32,308 nucleotides of DNA from a virus: positions 1 through 32,308 of IMG/VR virus record IMGVR_UViG_3300042540_000269. One strand, 5' to 3'. Shown here in pieces: positions 6,758 to 25,330 of the stretch. The stretch's first letter is position 1, and each line of letters begins with the position of its first letter. The notes under the pieces were generated by a model, which was not told the origin of the DNA, did no database searches, and saw only the letters and a list, made by a program, of their open reading frames with translations. Both the position numbers and the translations under genes were made by a program.

Positions 6758-7181
6758 TAAAAAATTCAAGGTTAAATACGCGACTAGAAATAAGTTAGCG
6801 AGGTCACTTCAAAAAGAAGTTCGTACACTTGGACTTATTGACACTGGTACGCTTTACGATTCAATTCGAATTTCTGCGGTTAGTGGTGAGGTTATCAATG
6901 AGTTAATGATAACGATTAACGCAATGTATTACTATTTATTTTTAGACGAGGGAACAAGTCGCGGAATACCACCTTACTCAATAACCGATAAGTGGTTGCA
7001 ACGTTCTGACACCCAAGCAATAATTGGTGAAATAGTTGCGGAATATATTGCTTATCAATTTGAAGTTTACCCATTACTAGATTTAGCACCTATATTAAAC
7101 AACCCTAAAATACAAATACAATTTAACTGGATTGATTCACCTTACGCTAATTTACCAACTGCACCAATGACCGCGTTTTAA
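6750..7181 (+). CDS. HK97 gp10-like head-tail joining protein
   Basis: 143 residues. The N-terminal basic segment, the LIDTGTLYDSIRIS motif (LxDTGxLxxSI) and the later YYLFLDEGTSRGIPPYSIT stretch (YxxxxxxGTSRxxPPY) are the hallmarks of the HK97-gp10/minor tail completion family, which sits at the head-tail interface. The start overlaps the preceding stop region by 8 nt. Its stop overlaps, by 4 nt, the 3' end of the convergent gene on the minus strand. Confidence in the family is good; which exact joining role it plays is inferred. Confidence 0.65.
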   Translation: MASKKFKVKYATRNKLARSLQKEVRTLGLIDTGTLYDSIRISAVSGEVINELMITINAMYYYLFLDEGTSRGIPPYSITDKWLQRSDTQAIIGEIVAEYIAYQFEVYPLLDLAPILNNPKIQIQFNWIDSPYANLPTAPMTAF

Positions 7182-7909
7182 GCTAAAACGTGTTTCATTG
7201 AAAGCATATTAAACACGAAGGTTAAATTAAGGTCAGTGATGGCGTCAATTTTTGTAATGTCTTCACCCGCTAAATTATAAAGCAAAGATTCCCAAGCGAA
7301 TTTTGACCGCTTCTTTTCGTTTTCAACTTCTTTCTTTTCTTCGGGGGTTAGTTCTTCGGTGTTTTCGTCTTCGTCGAATTGTTGAGCGAATAGGTTTTCG
7401 TATTGTTTAGTAAAATTATCGCGAAATTTTAGGTATTCGTGAACCACACCAAACACGCTAGTAATAGGAATTGTTTTAAATACTTCGGAACGTTCGAATA
7501 GGTTGTATTTATAAGGTTCAAAAACACGGTTATTCCATTCGTCTAGTTGTGTTTGTCGGTAAAATATTGCACAAATAATCGGTATATTTCCGATTTTATC
7601 GTTAACCGTGAAATAGTCGGTATCAATAAACTCACCTAGCGTTATTTTCTCGAACGGTTTAAACGTGAATTTATCAATTTGTTGGGTAATCTTAACACGT
7701 GGTTCTTGACGCAAGAATTTAAGCGGTTCAATTAGTTGTTTAAGTTCGTCAATTTCTAGGTCGTAAAACTCTTCAGGGTCTTCATCCGCAAGAATCGAAA
7801 GCATTTCGACCTGCATTTCAAACAACGAATCGAATTCAACTTGTTCAAGTTTCGCGAGTTCGATGAATTGGTTAACCGTTATTTGATTCCACGACTGCGG
7901 TAACTTCAT
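7178..7909 (-). CDS. Tail-assembly-chaperone-like protein, distal gene
   Basis: 243 residues on the minus strand. It opens with SWNQITVNQFIELAKLEQ, which parallels NELTIEQFEKVSEFTNNQ in the neighbouring upstream gene, so the two are likely paralogues. The rest is helical and acidic, with an FDEDENTEELTPEEKK linker. Such a gene pair is typical of tail assembly chaperones that coat the tape measure. It starts 38 nt before the upstream gene ends, in the +1 frame. The ATG has no Shine-Dalgarno sequence, so translational coupling is likely, and I see no slippery heptamer. The opposite orientation to the tape measure gene is unusual. Function is inferred from architecture; moderate confidence. Confidence 0.5.
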   Translation of the reverse strand: MKLPQSWNQITVNQFIELAKLEQVEFDSLFEMQVEMLSILADEDPEEFYDLEIDELKQLIEPLKFLRQEPRVKITQQIDKFTFKPFEKITLGEFIDTDYFTVNDKIGNIPIICAIFYRQTQLDEWNNRVFEPYKYNLFERSEVFKTIPITSVFGVVHEYLKFRDNFTKQYENLFAQQFDEDENTEELTPEEKKEVENEKKRSKFAWESLLYNLAGEDITKIDAITDLNLTFVFNMLSMKHVLA

Positions 7910-8441
7910 TCGTTAATTGTTTAGCAGTGTCTTTTAATTTGTCGGCAACGTAAGCCATAAACGGCAATGCTATTTCAGCATTTAAAGATTTAAACAAATT
8001 TGCTTTGTGTTTAATGTGAGCATCCGAATAATGTTCCTGAATGTCGAGGTCTTCGCGTTTAAATATAACGGCTAACATTTTAGACACGTACCTAGTCGGG
8101 TCTTTTTTAATAATTTTTTCAATGTGTTTAATGTCACGAACTGACAACTTAAATTTCTTGTCGTAACTGATATACTTGAAACCTTCTATTTCGATAGTTC
8201 GTTTTTTCTTTGTTGATGCTTTGTAAGTTACCGTGTTGAATTCTTTAACCTTGTCTTTGAACTCGGAAAAGTCCATTTCGTTTACCTCGTCTTCATCAGC
8301 ACCAAGGTACGTAAACACGGAAACCCATTTCTCAAAAGCGTCTAGTTCTTGGTTGTTTGTGAACTCGCTAACCTTTTCGAATTGTTCAATAGTTAGTTCG
8401 TTAATTACGTTTGGAATTTCTTGCTTACCTAGTTTTATCAT
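7872..8441 (-). CDS. Tail-assembly-chaperone-like protein, proximal gene
   Basis: 189 residues from the ATG at 8441. A longer in-frame start at 8477 exists, but would add a 12-residue stretch encoded in the AT-rich divergent promoter region. The N-terminus has VINELTIEQFEKVSEF followed by FEKWVSVFTYLGADEDEV, then a basic central part (YKASTKKKRTIEIEG) and a helical C-terminus. Similar small proteins lie beside tape measures in Bacteroidetes phages and are usually called tail assembly chaperones. A TATATTTG element lies 15 nt upstream of the start on this strand. Orientation opposes all other genes in the window. Confidence 0.5.
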   Translation of the reverse strand: MIKLGKQEIPNVINELTIEQFEKVSEFTNNQELDAFEKWVSVFTYLGADEDEVNEMDFSEFKDKVKEFNTVTYKASTKKKRTIEIEGFKYISYDKKFKLSVRDIKHIEKIIKKDPTRYVSKMLAVIFKREDLDIQEHYSDAHIKHKANLFKSLNAEIALPFMAYVADKLKDTAKQLTNEVTAVVESNNG

Positions 8442-8456
8442 CTTATAAGTTTTCAA

Positions 8457-8464
8457 CAAATATA
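8457..8464 (-). promoter_or_regulatory. Bacteroidetes-type -7 element for the minus-strand pair
   Basis: Read on the minus strand the sequence is TATATTTG, an exact fit to the TAnnTTTG (-7) consensus of Bacteroidetes housekeeping promoters, 15 nt before the ATG at 8441. Two TTTG copies lie upstream (8475-8478 and 8479-8482), but 10 and 14 nt away, shorter than the usual spacing of about 19. The site shares a 62-nt gap with the divergent late-type promoter for 8503. Confidence 0.45.
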
Positions 8465-8472
8465 AAAAAAAT

Positions 8473-8503
8473 AACAAACAAATTTTTATCCTATTATAAG
8501 GTA
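8473..8503 (+). promoter_or_regulatory. Late-type leaderless promoter, protease gene
   Basis: AACA at 8473 is followed 19 nt later (start to start) by TATTAT at 8492-8497, then AAGGT and the ATG at 8503. The T-rich spacer and the 5-nt distance to ATG match the other sites of this class. If TATTAT is a -10 hexamer, transcription would start on the A of the ATG. Confidence 0.55.
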
Positions 8504-9469: not shown

Positions 9470-10411
9470 ATGAACAGAAAACTAAAATTCGATTTGGATA
9501 TCGAAACTAACGCACTACTTTGTGCGAACCCTGATGAGTTCTATTCTAGAGCTTATTTAACTGAAGACCTAGTTGATAACTACCGAACTTTGCCGGGTAT
9601 TAAGTCAGCTACTAAATTGGCAAACGTTGCTTTCGGTAACATTTTGAAAGCTTCAACTTGTAGCTTTACTGCTCCTAACGATTCACTAGACGCAATCGAT
9701 GTTGACGTTTGTGCTTTGTCAGCAATGGCGCAAATTTGTCAGTTTGATTTAGAGCAATCTTTTGTTTCTTTACAAATGGCGCAAGGTTCTAACGGTGACT
9801 TTACGGTTGCTAGTTTTATGAACTACTATTGGAATGAAATGTCTTTGAAAATTCAAGAAGACCTTGAGTTAATCAGATGGCAAGGTGACACAAGTTTGAA
9901 CCCTGTTACTTACCCTATTGAATCTTTATGTGACGGTTATTTAGTAAAACTTTGTGGTGACGAAAACATCGCTGCAGGTCTTTACGCGGGTGCAATTGAT
10001 TCAACTAACGTAATCGCTCAAATGACTGCGGTTTATACAGCTTTACCTCCTGCGGTTATTCGTAAGAAAGCTGATTTGAGATTTTATGTTTCTTCAAATG
10101 TTGCCGCTGCATACGAATTGGCTGCTGCTACGGGTAACACACAAACATACGTTACTTTACCTTTAGGTTTAACTTTCCTAGGTGTTAAAGTTGTAGTTGC
10201 TGACGGTATGCCTAACGACACAATGGTATTGACTTTGAAATCAAACCTTATTTATGCGTTCGATGGCGAAGGAGATAGTAAAGCGTTGAAAGCGGTTAAC
10301 TTAACTGACACTGTTGCTGAACCATATTTGAGAACTCGTGCAAATATGAAAGTTGGTTTTTACTATACCAACCCTGCGGAAATTGTTGTTTACAATATCT
10401 GTTTTGACTAA
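9470..10411 (+). CDS. Major capsid protein (HK97 fold)
   Basis: 313 residues, right after the protease gene and followed by a strong terminator. Features typical of HK97-fold capsid proteins are visible: a helical N-terminus, a central helix-rich region with MNYYWNEMSLKIQEDLELIRW, and a beta-rich end with KKADLRFYVSSNVAAAYELA, LTFLGVKVVVADGMPNDTMV and RTRANMKVGFYYTNPAEIVVY. Codon use is rich in GCT, GGT and AAC, in keeping with high expression. It forms the icosahedral shell. Confidence is high from gene order, size and C-terminal pattern. Confidence 0.85.
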   Translation: MNRKLKFDLDIETNALLCANPDEFYSRAYLTEDLVDNYRTLPGIKSATKLANVAFGNILKASTCSFTAPNDSLDAIDVDVCALSAMAQICQFDLEQSFVSLQMAQGSNGDFTVASFMNYYWNEMSLKIQEDLELIRWQGDTSLNPVTYPIESLCDGYLVKLCGDENIAAGLYAGAIDSTNVIAQMTAVYTALPPAVIRKKADLRFYVSSNVAAAYELAAATGNTQTYVTLPLGLTFLGVKVVVADGMPNDTMVLTLKSNLIYAFDGEGDSKALKAVNLTDTVAEPYLRTRANMKVGFYYTNPAEIVVYNICFD

Positions 10412-19570: not shown

Positions 19571-19746
19571 AAGCCTATTATTTAATATACCAATCGGAAG
19601 GTGTTCGAGATTGGAGGATAGTTCAAGCGCATTCAAATGAGGACGCCATCCAAAAAGCGGACATACATCCGAAATTGATTTACCACGTTTCAACACTGGA
19701 AGCTTGGGAGAAATTCAACGAAGAAAGACGAGGTATGTTTAAATAA
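19567..19746 (+). CDS. Small hypothetical protein, TTG start
   Basis: 59 residues from a TTG that overlaps the previous stop (TTGA). Reads MKAYYLIYQSEGVRDWRIVQ, then HSNEDAIQKADIHPKLIYHV and LEAWEKFNEERRGMF. Codon use and the coupled start support a real gene. Its TAA abuts the next promoter. Similar short proteins with a DAIxKA helix occur in phages; function unknown. Confidence 0.5.
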   Translation: MKAYYLIYQSEGVRDWRIVQAHSNEDAIQKADIHPKLIYHVSTLEAWEKFNEERRGMFK

Positions 19747-19775
19747 CAAAAACAATTTTTTTATATTATTAAGTA
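19745..19775 (+). promoter_or_regulatory. Late-type promoter in front of a structured RNA
   Basis: AACA at 19745, T-rich spacer, TATTAT at 19764-19769, TAAGT, and predicted start A at 19775. Spacing is as at the leaderless promoters, but no ATG follows. Instead the predicted start lies two bases before the first helix of the RNA at 19775-19871. Confidence 0.5.
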
Positions 19776-19871
19776 GGTTACGCTTCGACAACATAGTAAC
19801 TGAATAATAACATTATTACCCGATTATTTGAAAGCGAAGTCGAAGCCGCGAGTAGAATGGTCGGGTTTTTT
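19775..19871 (+). ncRNA. Structured RNA with predicted kissing-loop and terminator
   Basis: About 97 nt. Helix P1 is GTTAC (19777-19781) with GTAAC (19796-19800). P2 is AATAAT (19803-19808) with ATTATT (19812-19817), loop AAC. P3 is ACCCGA (19818-19823) with TCGGGT (19861-19866), followed by TTTTTT as an intrinsic terminator. GCTTCGAC (19782-19789), in the P1 loop, is an exact 8-bp complement of GTCGAAGC (19839-19846) in the P3 loop, which makes a loop-loop pseudoknot. It begins at the predicted start of a phage promoter and precedes the replication initiator gene at 19883. It may be a small RNA or an attenuating leader. All pairing is read by eye. Confidence 0.5.
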
Positions 19872-19882
19872 AATGAACTAAA

Positions 19883-20458
19883 ATGAGAAAAGCATTTAAT
19901 TTTTATCGTAGCTATTGGGACGTAGCTAACGAATTAAACGACAAAGAAAGGTTAGAGTTTTACGATGCGTTGTTAAAACGTGAGTTTACTGGTGAAGAAA
20001 GTGAACTTTCAGGAATGGTTAAGTTTGCTTACCTTTCACAAAAGCATTCCATTGATAATCAAATATTTGGTTACGTTTCTCAAATGAATAAAAAACACCC
20101 TAACCAAGACCCTTGGCAAGGGGGTACTAAAGAGGGTAAGATAACACCTAGGGTACAAGAGAAAGAGAAAGTAAAAGAGAAAGTAGAAGTAAAAGTTGAA
20201 TTAGAAAATATTGAAGACCGCAAACAAAAGTTTGCTGATAACCTCAAACCATTTGTTGAGAAATACGGAAGGGAGTTTATTAAGGATTTTTATTTGTACT
20301 GGAGTGAAACGACATTAAACAACAAAAAAATGAAGTATGAACTTGAAAAGACTTGGAGTTTAGAACGTAGGTTGTATAAGTGGGAAAGTAACGCTAAAAA
20401 GTTTGGGACAGTTTTACCTATTGAAGAAAAAACTAAATTTAAAGCAGCGTGGCAATAG
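19883..20458 (+). CDS. Phage replication initiator (DUF6291/DnaD-like type)
   Basis: 191 residues. The N-terminal KAFNFYRSYWDVANELNDKE, FYDALLKREFTG, SELSGMVKFAYL pattern is that of the DUF6291-type replication/replisome organiser domain. A charged linker (QEKEKVKEKVEVKVE) follows, then a C-terminal DFYLYWSET, KMKYELEKTWSLERRLYKW helix set also seen in phage replication initiators. Such proteins bind the origin and load the helicase, encoded directly downstream with a 10-nt overlap. Likely regulated by the structured RNA just upstream. Confidence 0.65.
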   Translation: MRKAFNFYRSYWDVANELNDKERLEFYDALLKREFTGEESELSGMVKFAYLSQKHSIDNQIFGYVSQMNKKHPNQDPWQGGTKEGKITPRVQEKEKVKEKVEVKVELENIEDRKQKFADNLKPFVEKYGREFIKDFYLYWSETTLNNKKMKYELEKTWSLERRLYKWESNAKKFGTVLPIEEKTKFKAAWQ

Positions 20459-21444
20459 AAGGATTTAAAGTAACGGAGCCTAGCGATGTTCTTAAACAAT
20501 TAAAAGAATATAGAAATAATTACCACGAAAGAGGTGTTTATTTGGGGTTTGCTGCGATTGATGAATATTATTCAATGCAGTTAGGCGGTTGTACTGACTG
20601 GACGGGTTTCCCAATGAGTGGTAAAACGCAAGTGTTAATGGAAATGTTAATGAATACTTCTATATTTTACGGTTGGAAACATTTAATTTATTTTCCTGAT
20701 GTTGGTAATAACGTTGAAATAATTGCGGACTTCATTCACAAAAAGACGAACAAATCTTTTGACCCAAAAAAACCGAATGTAATTACTGATTTTGATATCG
20801 AGAAAGAAATTAAGTGGGTTACTGACCATTTCAAGGTATTAACTAAAGTTGACGTTAAAGCTAAAATGACACCAATGGATTTTTGGGATATGGCTGCGCA
20901 CATTAAAAAGACGGAAGGATTACACACCGCCAGTATTGACAGTTGGAAAGATTTAAGCCACCCTTATGACACTTACGGAGGTTATGCGACTTATTTGGAG
21001 TTTTGCTTACCTTATCGAAATCATATTGCTGAAGAAAACGACTTGCATTTACATACAATTATTCACCCAAAACTTACGGAGAAAGTAAATGGTCAAAGGT
21101 CAGTGCCTACACCCTACGATTTAAAAGGAGGTTCGGAGTGGTTTAATAGTGGTAAGTCAATGATTACAATCCATCGACCCGACGTAACGCATAACTTGGT
21201 TGAAATCTATTTCAATAAAATAAAACCGCGTTCAATTGGTAGGATAGGTAAGTGTGAACTTCATTTTGACATAAACACTTTGACTTATTACGACATTGAT
21301 GTTGTTGCACCAAACCAACACAATAAACTTTACGCTGCTCCAAAAGGCGAATTAAAAACACGAAATGTATTACCGAATGAAATACAAGAATTTTATAAAC
21401 CACTATTGCCAAATAATAATTTTGACGATGGATTACCTTTTTAA
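20449..21444 (+). CDS. RecA-fold replicative helicase-like ATPase
   Basis: 331 residues from a GTG start overlapping the initiator gene. Walker A is GFPMSGKT (G53-T60) and a Walker B-like HTASIDSW has D164. Further segments GWKHLIYFPDVGNNVE and HLHTIIHPKLTEK with GGSEWFNSGKSMITIHR fit the C-terminal ATPase core of DnaB/Twinkle-type helicases. No primase or DnaB N-terminal domain is present. Acts at the fork with the initiator encoded upstream. RecA-like ATPase is confident; helicase is the likely function. Confidence 0.65.
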   Translation: MAIEGFKVTEPSDVLKQLKEYRNNYHERGVYLGFAAIDEYYSMQLGGCTDWTGFPMSGKTQVLMEMLMNTSIFYGWKHLIYFPDVGNNVEIIADFIHKKTNKSFDPKKPNVITDFDIEKEIKWVTDHFKVLTKVDVKAKMTPMDFWDMAAHIKKTEGLHTASIDSWKDLSHPYDTYGGYATYLEFCLPYRNHIAEENDLHLHTIIHPKLTEKVNGQRSVPTPYDLKGGSEWFNSGKSMITIHRPDVTHNLVEIYFNKIKPRSIGRIGKCELHFDINTLTYYDIDVVAPNQHNKLYAAPKGELKTRNVLPNEIQEFYKPLLPNNNFDDGLPF

Positions 21445-24571: not shown

Positions 24572-24984
24572 AAGCAAAATACATAGAAACACCCGAAGCC
24601 CTATACCAACTATTCGAAGGTTACGTAAAGGAAACTAAAGAAAGAACAAGAAACGTTCCTAAAGCTACAAACAAAGGTGTACTATACGAACCACACACAC
24701 CACCGTTAACAATAGACGGGTTTAAAACTTACTGCAATAAAAAAGGTTCTGACGTGAATCGTTATTGGTACAATGTAGGGGGTGAATGTGTTGAATATGT
24801 AAGCATCGTTACGCGCATAAAAGAAGAAATCCGAAATGACCAAATCGAAGGTGCGTTAGTTGGACAATACCAACAAAACATTGTTGCAAGGTTAAACGGG
24901 CTTACCGAAAAGACGGACGTCACTACCCAAGGCGAACGAATTAGTGAAATCAAAGTAAACATTATAAATCCAAATGGAATTTAA
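24568..24984 (+). CDS. Terminase small subunit
   Basis: 138 residues. The pattern ETPEALYQLFEGYVKETKE, PLTIDGFKTYCNKKG, VSIVTRIKEEIRNDQIEGAL and VGQYQQNIVARLNGLTEKTD is characteristic of Bacteroidetes phage small terminases. These recognise packaging sites and hand DNA to the large subunit. The large subunit gene follows after one short gene. Confidence is high from these segments and position. Confidence 0.8.
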   Translation: MKAKYIETPEALYQLFEGYVKETKERTRNVPKATNKGVLYEPHTPPLTIDGFKTYCNKKGSDVNRYWYNVGGECVEYVSIVTRIKEEIRNDQIEGALVGQYQQNIVARLNGLTEKTDVTTQGERISEIKVNIINPNGI

Positions 24985-25330
24985 TTCCGACTTTAAATAT
25001 GATTTAAAAATTGGGCAGGTTGCTGAACAACAACTTGCTTTTTTACTTGGTTGTAAAGTTGAGGTTAAGAACGACCAAAAGGCTCACATAACTGGAAATG
25101 TATTTATTGAGTATGAAAGTAGAGGTAAGCGTTCAGGAATTGCAACGAGTGAATCTGAATATTATTGTATAGTAATTAAGTCTAGCACATTTATATTACT
25201 TCCAAAAGACGAATTAAAACAGATGTGTAGAAAATACATAGGGACAAGTAGGGACGTTGTCGGAGGTGACAATAATACAAGTAAAGGTATTTTGCTCCCA
25301 CTTAAAGACCTAATAAATGGAAATAAATAG
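24974..25330 (+). CDS. PD-(D/E)XK nuclease-like protein
   Basis: 118 residues. GQVAEQQLAFLLGCKVEVKN supplies Glu and VEVK residues. TGNVFIEYESRGKRSGIATS and YYCIVIKSSTFILLPKDELK resemble small phage resolvase/endonuclease-type PD-(D/E)XK proteins. Placement between small and large terminase (overlapping both) suggests work on packaged DNA, such as debranching or trimming. Active-site assignment is tentative; moderate confidence in fold, low in function. Confidence 0.45.
   Translation: MEFNSDFKYDLKIGQVAEQQLAFLLGCKVEVKNDQKAHITGNVFIEYESRGKRSGIATSESEYYCIVIKSSTFILLPKDELKQMCRKYIGTSRDVVGGDNNTSKGILLPLKDLINGNK

Follow-up and report, generated by a model that had tools for sequence, protein, structure and literature searches.

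A covarying kissing-loop leader RNA before replication operons in phages of Flavobacterium and relatives: a candidate transcription attenuator

The locus and its predicted RNA

The window, i.e., the whole stretch of DNA analyzed here, is a 32,308-base IMG/VR virus record with a gene set like that of Flavobacterium phages. Between an ORF ending at 19744 and the ATG at 19883 it contains an RNA element, the parts of which are listed below together with the two genes of the operon behind it.

19756–19775, plus strand: promoter-like stretch TTTTTTTATATTATTAAGTA, recognized by sequence and adjoining the RNA
19776–19870, plus strand: predicted leader RNA of class A, with its expected 5′ end at P1 and its 3′ end in the T-run
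19776–19801, plus strand: hairpin P1 (arms 19776–19781 with 19796–19801), doubly changed in 4/4 modelled pairs
19782–19789, plus strand: K1, P1-loop strand of the kiss, GCTTCGAC, covarying with K2
19819–19865, plus strand: terminator hairpin P3 (P3a, 19819–19829 with 19855–19865; P3b, 19834–19836 with 19847–19849)
19839–19846, plus strand: K2, strand at the apical loop of the terminator, GTCGAAGC, covarying with K1
19866–19871, plus strand: T-run of an intrinsic terminator, recognized by sequence and kept in all aligned members
19883–20458, plus strand: gene of a DUF6291 protein (Pfam PF19808; PHROGs 19415, unknown function), first of the operon
20449–21444, plus strand: gene of a DnaB-like helicase or primase-helicase (phrog_5482; weaker matches to DNA primase/helicase families), second of the operon

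The predicted length of the RNA is about 95 nt (19776 to approximately 19870). The region folds better than its shuffled versions (z −2.6), and the leader is matched by the covariance model R1 (see below) with 69.1 bits and an E-value of 2.6e-10, the window itself being part of the training set of this model. A weak second R1 match in the window (24978–25044, E 0.25) was taken as a chance hit. The 8-mers K1 and K2 occur once each on the plus strand of the window, and an 8-nt complement between shuffled loops of the same composition is expected with a chance of about 0.0016. The initial annotation of this DNA had described a compact RNA with kissing loops and with a promoter and a terminator of its own, a description supported at the sequence level by fold, covariation, and anatomy. 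The 8-bp complement that it reported between the P1 and P3 loops was borne out, GCTTCGAC and GTCGAAGC being complementary and covarying, but its helix P2 (19803–19817) has to be given up, as this helix is absent from the predicted fold and the linker shows no conservation of it.

Covariation of the stems and of the kiss

Relatives of the element were fetched via the two proteins encoded downstream. They carry, at the same position, different but matching loops, e.g., CGTCCTAC/GTAGGACG, GCTTCCAC/GTGGAAGC, and GGTTCGAC/GTCGAACC. In an alignment of 38 sequences (A1), the rows of which were partly chosen by a descriptor demanding K complementarity, 97.7% of the K1/K2 cells were paired and double changes were found in seven of the eight pairs, the covariation score of the kiss being 0.716 compared with 0.218 for shuffled and at most 0.122 for slid controls. 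Since the A1 rows are thus biased toward complementarity, the model R1 was built without the K pairs, and viral contigs were scanned with a DNA pattern containing no loop letters, which yielded 95 matching stretches and 80 listed loci. All but two of these loci (78/80) were new, and the new ones contain 65 R1 matches. In the alignment of the loop-blind pattern set plus the window (A3), the kiss is paired in 99.0% of the cells, with double changes in 5/8 pairs and 12 distinct loop pairs besides the one of the window. Double changes were also present in the stems (P1, 4/4 modelled pairs; P3a, 7/9; P3b, 2/3), and the modelled pairs of P3a and P3b were paired in 100% of the cells. Shuffled and slid controls stayed far below the real covariation score. 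At least seven of the eight K pairs are kept in 33 of the 34 class A members outside the training alignment; the K1 of the sole exception, L007, is identical to that of L035, and in L035 pairing occurs in a register that is off by one.

Covariation across homologues had been proposed by the initial annotation as the check to be made. As both the kiss, in the loop-blind set, and the helices P1, P3a, and P3b covary, we consider the observation of a kissing-loop RNA in the window as settled and, as judged from sequence comparison, confirmed. The top covarying column pairs all fall into P1, K, P3a, and P3b, and no competing or antiterminator helix was seen among them.

Two classes of the element could be distinguished. 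In class A, to which the window belongs, the 14-nt P1 loop consists of K1 and a conserved AxxATA strand. In class B, the P1 loop is short and formed nearly completely by K1 (e.g., GTTC-GTGCAG-GAAC), the AxxATA strand is absent, and K2 is located in a terminator of the same kind. Class B loops covary as well (GTGCAG/CTGCAC, GAGCAG/CTGCTC, GTGCCG/CGGCAC, AGGCAG/CTGCCT, and CGTAGGA/TCCTACG), with members identified either through visual inspection of the orthologous place or with a descriptor demanding complementarity. At one orthologous place in cultured phages, snusmum6-1 and mumin6-1 have the loop GTGGAACG, hattifnatt9-1 and filifjonk9-1 the loop GTGAGACG, and morran9-1 the loop GTGAGAAG, in each case with a matching K2. 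When loci were selected by the helicase of the window and reached far enough upstream, the element was present in 41 out of 41 (29 class A and 12 class B).

Promoter, terminator, and distance to the ATG

A box of the Bacteroidetes type, TAnnTTTG, ends 2–6 nt before P1 in 60 of the 71 distinct class A elements, which places P1 at or next to the 5′ end of the RNA. At the other end, P3 is a G-C rich stem running directly into the conserved T-run, which is the form of an intrinsic terminator. A co-oriented ORF comes after the T-run in each of the 71 distinct members of class A. For 68 of these the distance is at most 24 nt, compared with an equally close ORF behind 14 of 151 other terminator-like sites on the same contigs. 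The ATG at 19883 in the window is located 11 nt past the T-run. A strict descriptor, requiring a promoter box, P1, a K of at least 7, a terminator, and an ATG within 50 nt, retrieved 91 distinct leaders from 1.77 Mb vs. one from the reversed sequence. These leaders comprise 39 loop strings and have a median ATG gap of 18 nt; as the descriptor itself presupposes an ATG within 50 nt, the comparison of 68/71 with 14/151 is the figure to use for the spacing. Between the 3′ half of the RNA and the ATG, none of the 91 strict leaders contains a further box of the TAnnTTTG type.

The promoter-like stretch of the window differs from the host-type box of most relatives. Sites similar to it were found seven times in the window (1.45 expected), with those at the start codons 2767, 8503, 11073, 24208, 26496, and 30652 standing directly at the codon; a looser form of the motif is weakly above chance. 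At 2755, 8491, 11061, 24196, 26484, and 30640 the motif (A/C)TATTATWAR(N)TATG runs into the start codons, as if the transcripts were leaderless, and the leader promoter at 19756–19775 is of the same class. The promoter of the RNA had been singled out before as the only member of its class that does not lead to an ATG. Since the six similar sites stand directly at start codons this remark was fair, and the promoter does adjoin the RNA, but the RNA itself leads to an ATG.

Genes behind the leader and number of copies

The AlphaFold model of the protein encoded at 19883 is all helical with a mean pLDDT of 70, and its predicted fold had no significant match in the PDB. For this reason the designation as putative replication initiator derives from the place of this gene beside that of the DnaB-like helicase. 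The first gene behind the leader varies between relatives and encodes a DUF6291 protein, another initiator-like protein, a protein of about 60 amino acids, a helicase, or an HNH-type endonuclease. Up to 4 kb downstream of the 65 elements found by the pattern only, a homologue of the NinG of the window is present in 46 cases, one of its helicase in 26, and one of its DUF6291 protein in 21, and the upstream neighbours vary. This combination of kept downstream and changing upstream genes suggests that the RNA goes together with the beginning of an operon whose gene order resembles lambda O-P-nin. In the window itself, the order between 17469 and 22893 is Erf, exonuclease, GIY-YIG, SSB-like protein, leader RNA, DUF6291 protein, helicase, endonuclease VII-like protein, and NinG, which resembles the lambda recombination and O-P-nin order. 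Two ORFs on the minus strand of an otherwise plus-strand region (7178–8477) are without a PHROGs match.

Some phages contain two or three leaders before different operons, with loop sequences that differ. L157 has two leaders with the loops CATCCTAC and GCTCTCAC, L118 and L165 each have one leader of class A and one of class B, and L103 has two. The cultured phage snusmum6-1 contains three, at 9722, 13662, and 14697, which are located before the gp033 helicase, the gp040 endonuclease, and gp043. In most of the other virus records a single strong class A match was obtained, and one leader was also found in the Arctic Flavobacterium phage 11b. For Flavobacterium phage 6H, 46 of 47 kb of which were scanned, no strict leader was obtained. 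Kissing leaders directly before genes of HNH-type endonucleases were observed at L273:13662–13742 and L103:3355–3439, and a kissing-leader module may travel with such genes.

A probable attenuator of replication operons

The element is probably a cis-acting transcription attenuator of phage replication operons. With a promoter at the 5′ end of the RNA, a terminator at its 3′ end, and a gene without a visible promoter behind it, this gene is most simply expressed by read-through of the terminator. Whether the RNA acts in trans or as an attenuator had been left open by the initial annotation; the narrow ATG spacing, the presence in all testable relatives, and the occurrence of several copies per genome favor a leader acting in cis and make an attenuator the best reading. 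The fold, the kiss, the placement of the promoter, the terminator, and the place before the operon, as they emerge from the comparison of the relatives, would then combine as follows. Polymerase would start at the promoter adjoining P1 and produce a leader of about 90–95 nt, in which P1 would fold first and present K1 in its loop. P3 would fold next with K2 at its tip, and K1 would dock on K2. By default, transcription would stop in the T-run, resulting in a compact RNA with a hairpin at each end. A relieving signal, such as a phage or host antiterminator or a modified polymerase, would allow read-through to the ATG, which usually lies about 18 nt further on (11 nt in the window), and thereby expression of the replication operon. 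Function of the terminator in vivo and regulation of the read-through are inferences from this arrangement. The docked state would correspond to the “off” state, as suggested by the joint conservation of the kiss and the intact terminator stem and by the fact that no competing helix covaries.

Several points speak against an attenuator. Among the covarying pairs, no antiterminator helix was seen that would account for the switch step. Compact phage genomes space their genes closely anyway, yet the control terminators do not show such a spacing. Furthermore, promoters other than TAnnTTTG could lie between the T-run and the ATG. The finding that the strongest covarying pairs are in the described helices argues against a classic terminator–antiterminator switch; it favors control through the docking itself or through a factor. 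Simple autoregulation by the product of the first gene is unlikely, because this gene varies too much. It is conceivable, though we hold it with some reserve, that the docking of the loop on the terminator tip itself sets termination, as part of a phage-wide riboregulation in which the module stands before several operons, each copy having its own loop code. Such codes would let the leaders of one phage avoid pairing with each other.

A free sRNA acting in trans on host or phage RNA or protein, for which the place before an ORF would be incidental, would be in line with the own promoter and terminator and with the compact fold closed at both ends. We regard it as unlikely, given the narrow ATG spacing, the missing promoter box of the gene behind it, the lack of a third site for either 8-mer on the plus strand of the window, and the fact that one genome has several copies with different loops before different genes. 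As a special case of regulation in cis, a metabolite-sensing riboswitch on the replication operon is rather improbable: a compact fold with a loop–loop contact would suit it, as would the small number of unpaired bases conserved in class A (e.g., AxxATA following K1), but class B does without the AxxATA strand and no alternative helix covaries. The constant position before an ATG would also be expected for a 5′-UTR structure serving mRNA stability or translation, in which the terminator-like hairpin does not terminate; as the G-C rich stem leads directly into a conserved T-run, in the form of an intrinsic terminator, there is little to recommend this reading. A DNA-level inverted repeat with K1 and K2 as half-sites bound by an initiator, a repressor, or another DNA-binding protein is hardly credible, even though such a repeat, close to a replication module, could serve as an operator or as an origin site. 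K1 and K2 lie in hairpin loops, the gap between them varies from 42 to 49 nt, and the stems on either side covary in the manner of RNA helices, G-U pairs included.

Relation to known systems and occurrence

The probable attenuator resembles other attenuator and riboswitch leaders in its order of promoter, structured leader, intrinsic terminator, and gene, and, with respect to TAnnTTTG boxes, the gene behind the terminator has no promoter of its own. It differs from them in that no alternative antiterminator pairing covaries and in that the loop sequence is free while complementarity is kept. The lambda pR′-tR′ leader of approximately 194 nt precedes the late genes, and Q antitermination acts there at promoter-proximal DNA. 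Common to both is a phage promoter followed by a short terminated leader directly before an operon that needs read-through, whereas a conserved RNA fold with a kissing loop and a place before replication genes set the present leader apart. The put RNA of HK022 makes polymerase resistant to terminators further on. It is likewise a short phage RNA with two hairpins next to an early promoter and linked to termination; however, the hairpins of the leader are not separate from a terminator to be overcome, as its second hairpin is itself terminator-like with a T-run, and its loops pair. The pRNA of phi29 forms intermolecular pairs within a ring on the packaging motor. Although it is also a phage RNA of about 100 nt, the two loops of which are complementary to each other and vary from relative to relative, the leader goes with replication operons and not with the terminase. 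Judged by position, a role in a packaging motor is not indicated, the conserved neighbours being replication genes and the terminase gene of the window lying at 25317.

A search of Rfam 15, with the gathering score of each family as the threshold, yielded no match in the window, in agreement with the earlier remark that no known riboswitch or sRNA family was recognizable, and none in L273, L275, L272, L118, and L157. For L012, L029, L072, L044, and L108, one sub-threshold rimP match was obtained, located elsewhere than the element. No description of this RNA was found in the open-access literature, and the text of a paper on Baltic Flavobacterium phages (PMC7077304) does not contain the words “terminator,” “promoter,” or “noncoding.” The element resembles a gene switch of a so far uncatalogued type and, in phages of Flavobacterium and relatives, forms an apparent RNA switch where DNA replication is entered. 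Its presence in cultured phages makes it immediately testable. If termination is controlled by the kiss at the tip of the terminator, this would represent a mode of attenuation that needs no antiterminator helix, and the variation of the loop codes would constitute a natural mutational series.

As far as the sequences searched are concerned, the element is found in phage contigs and cultured phages of Flavobacterium and relatives and is general in this group. In bacterial and archaeal contigs, 69 stretches matched the RNA pattern, none of which was scored by the model at E<0.1, and one query against plasmids gave no match. Searches with blastn in which individual class A members served as queries against phages and plasmids yielded little, owing to the rapid divergence of the family. 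Among 397 genomes of Flavobacteriaceae, the element was present in one. This lone match (L272:310–409) is located on a 1.9-kb piece and is followed by an initiator-like gene; the piece may represent either a prophage or a contig of a phage that was binned together with this genome.
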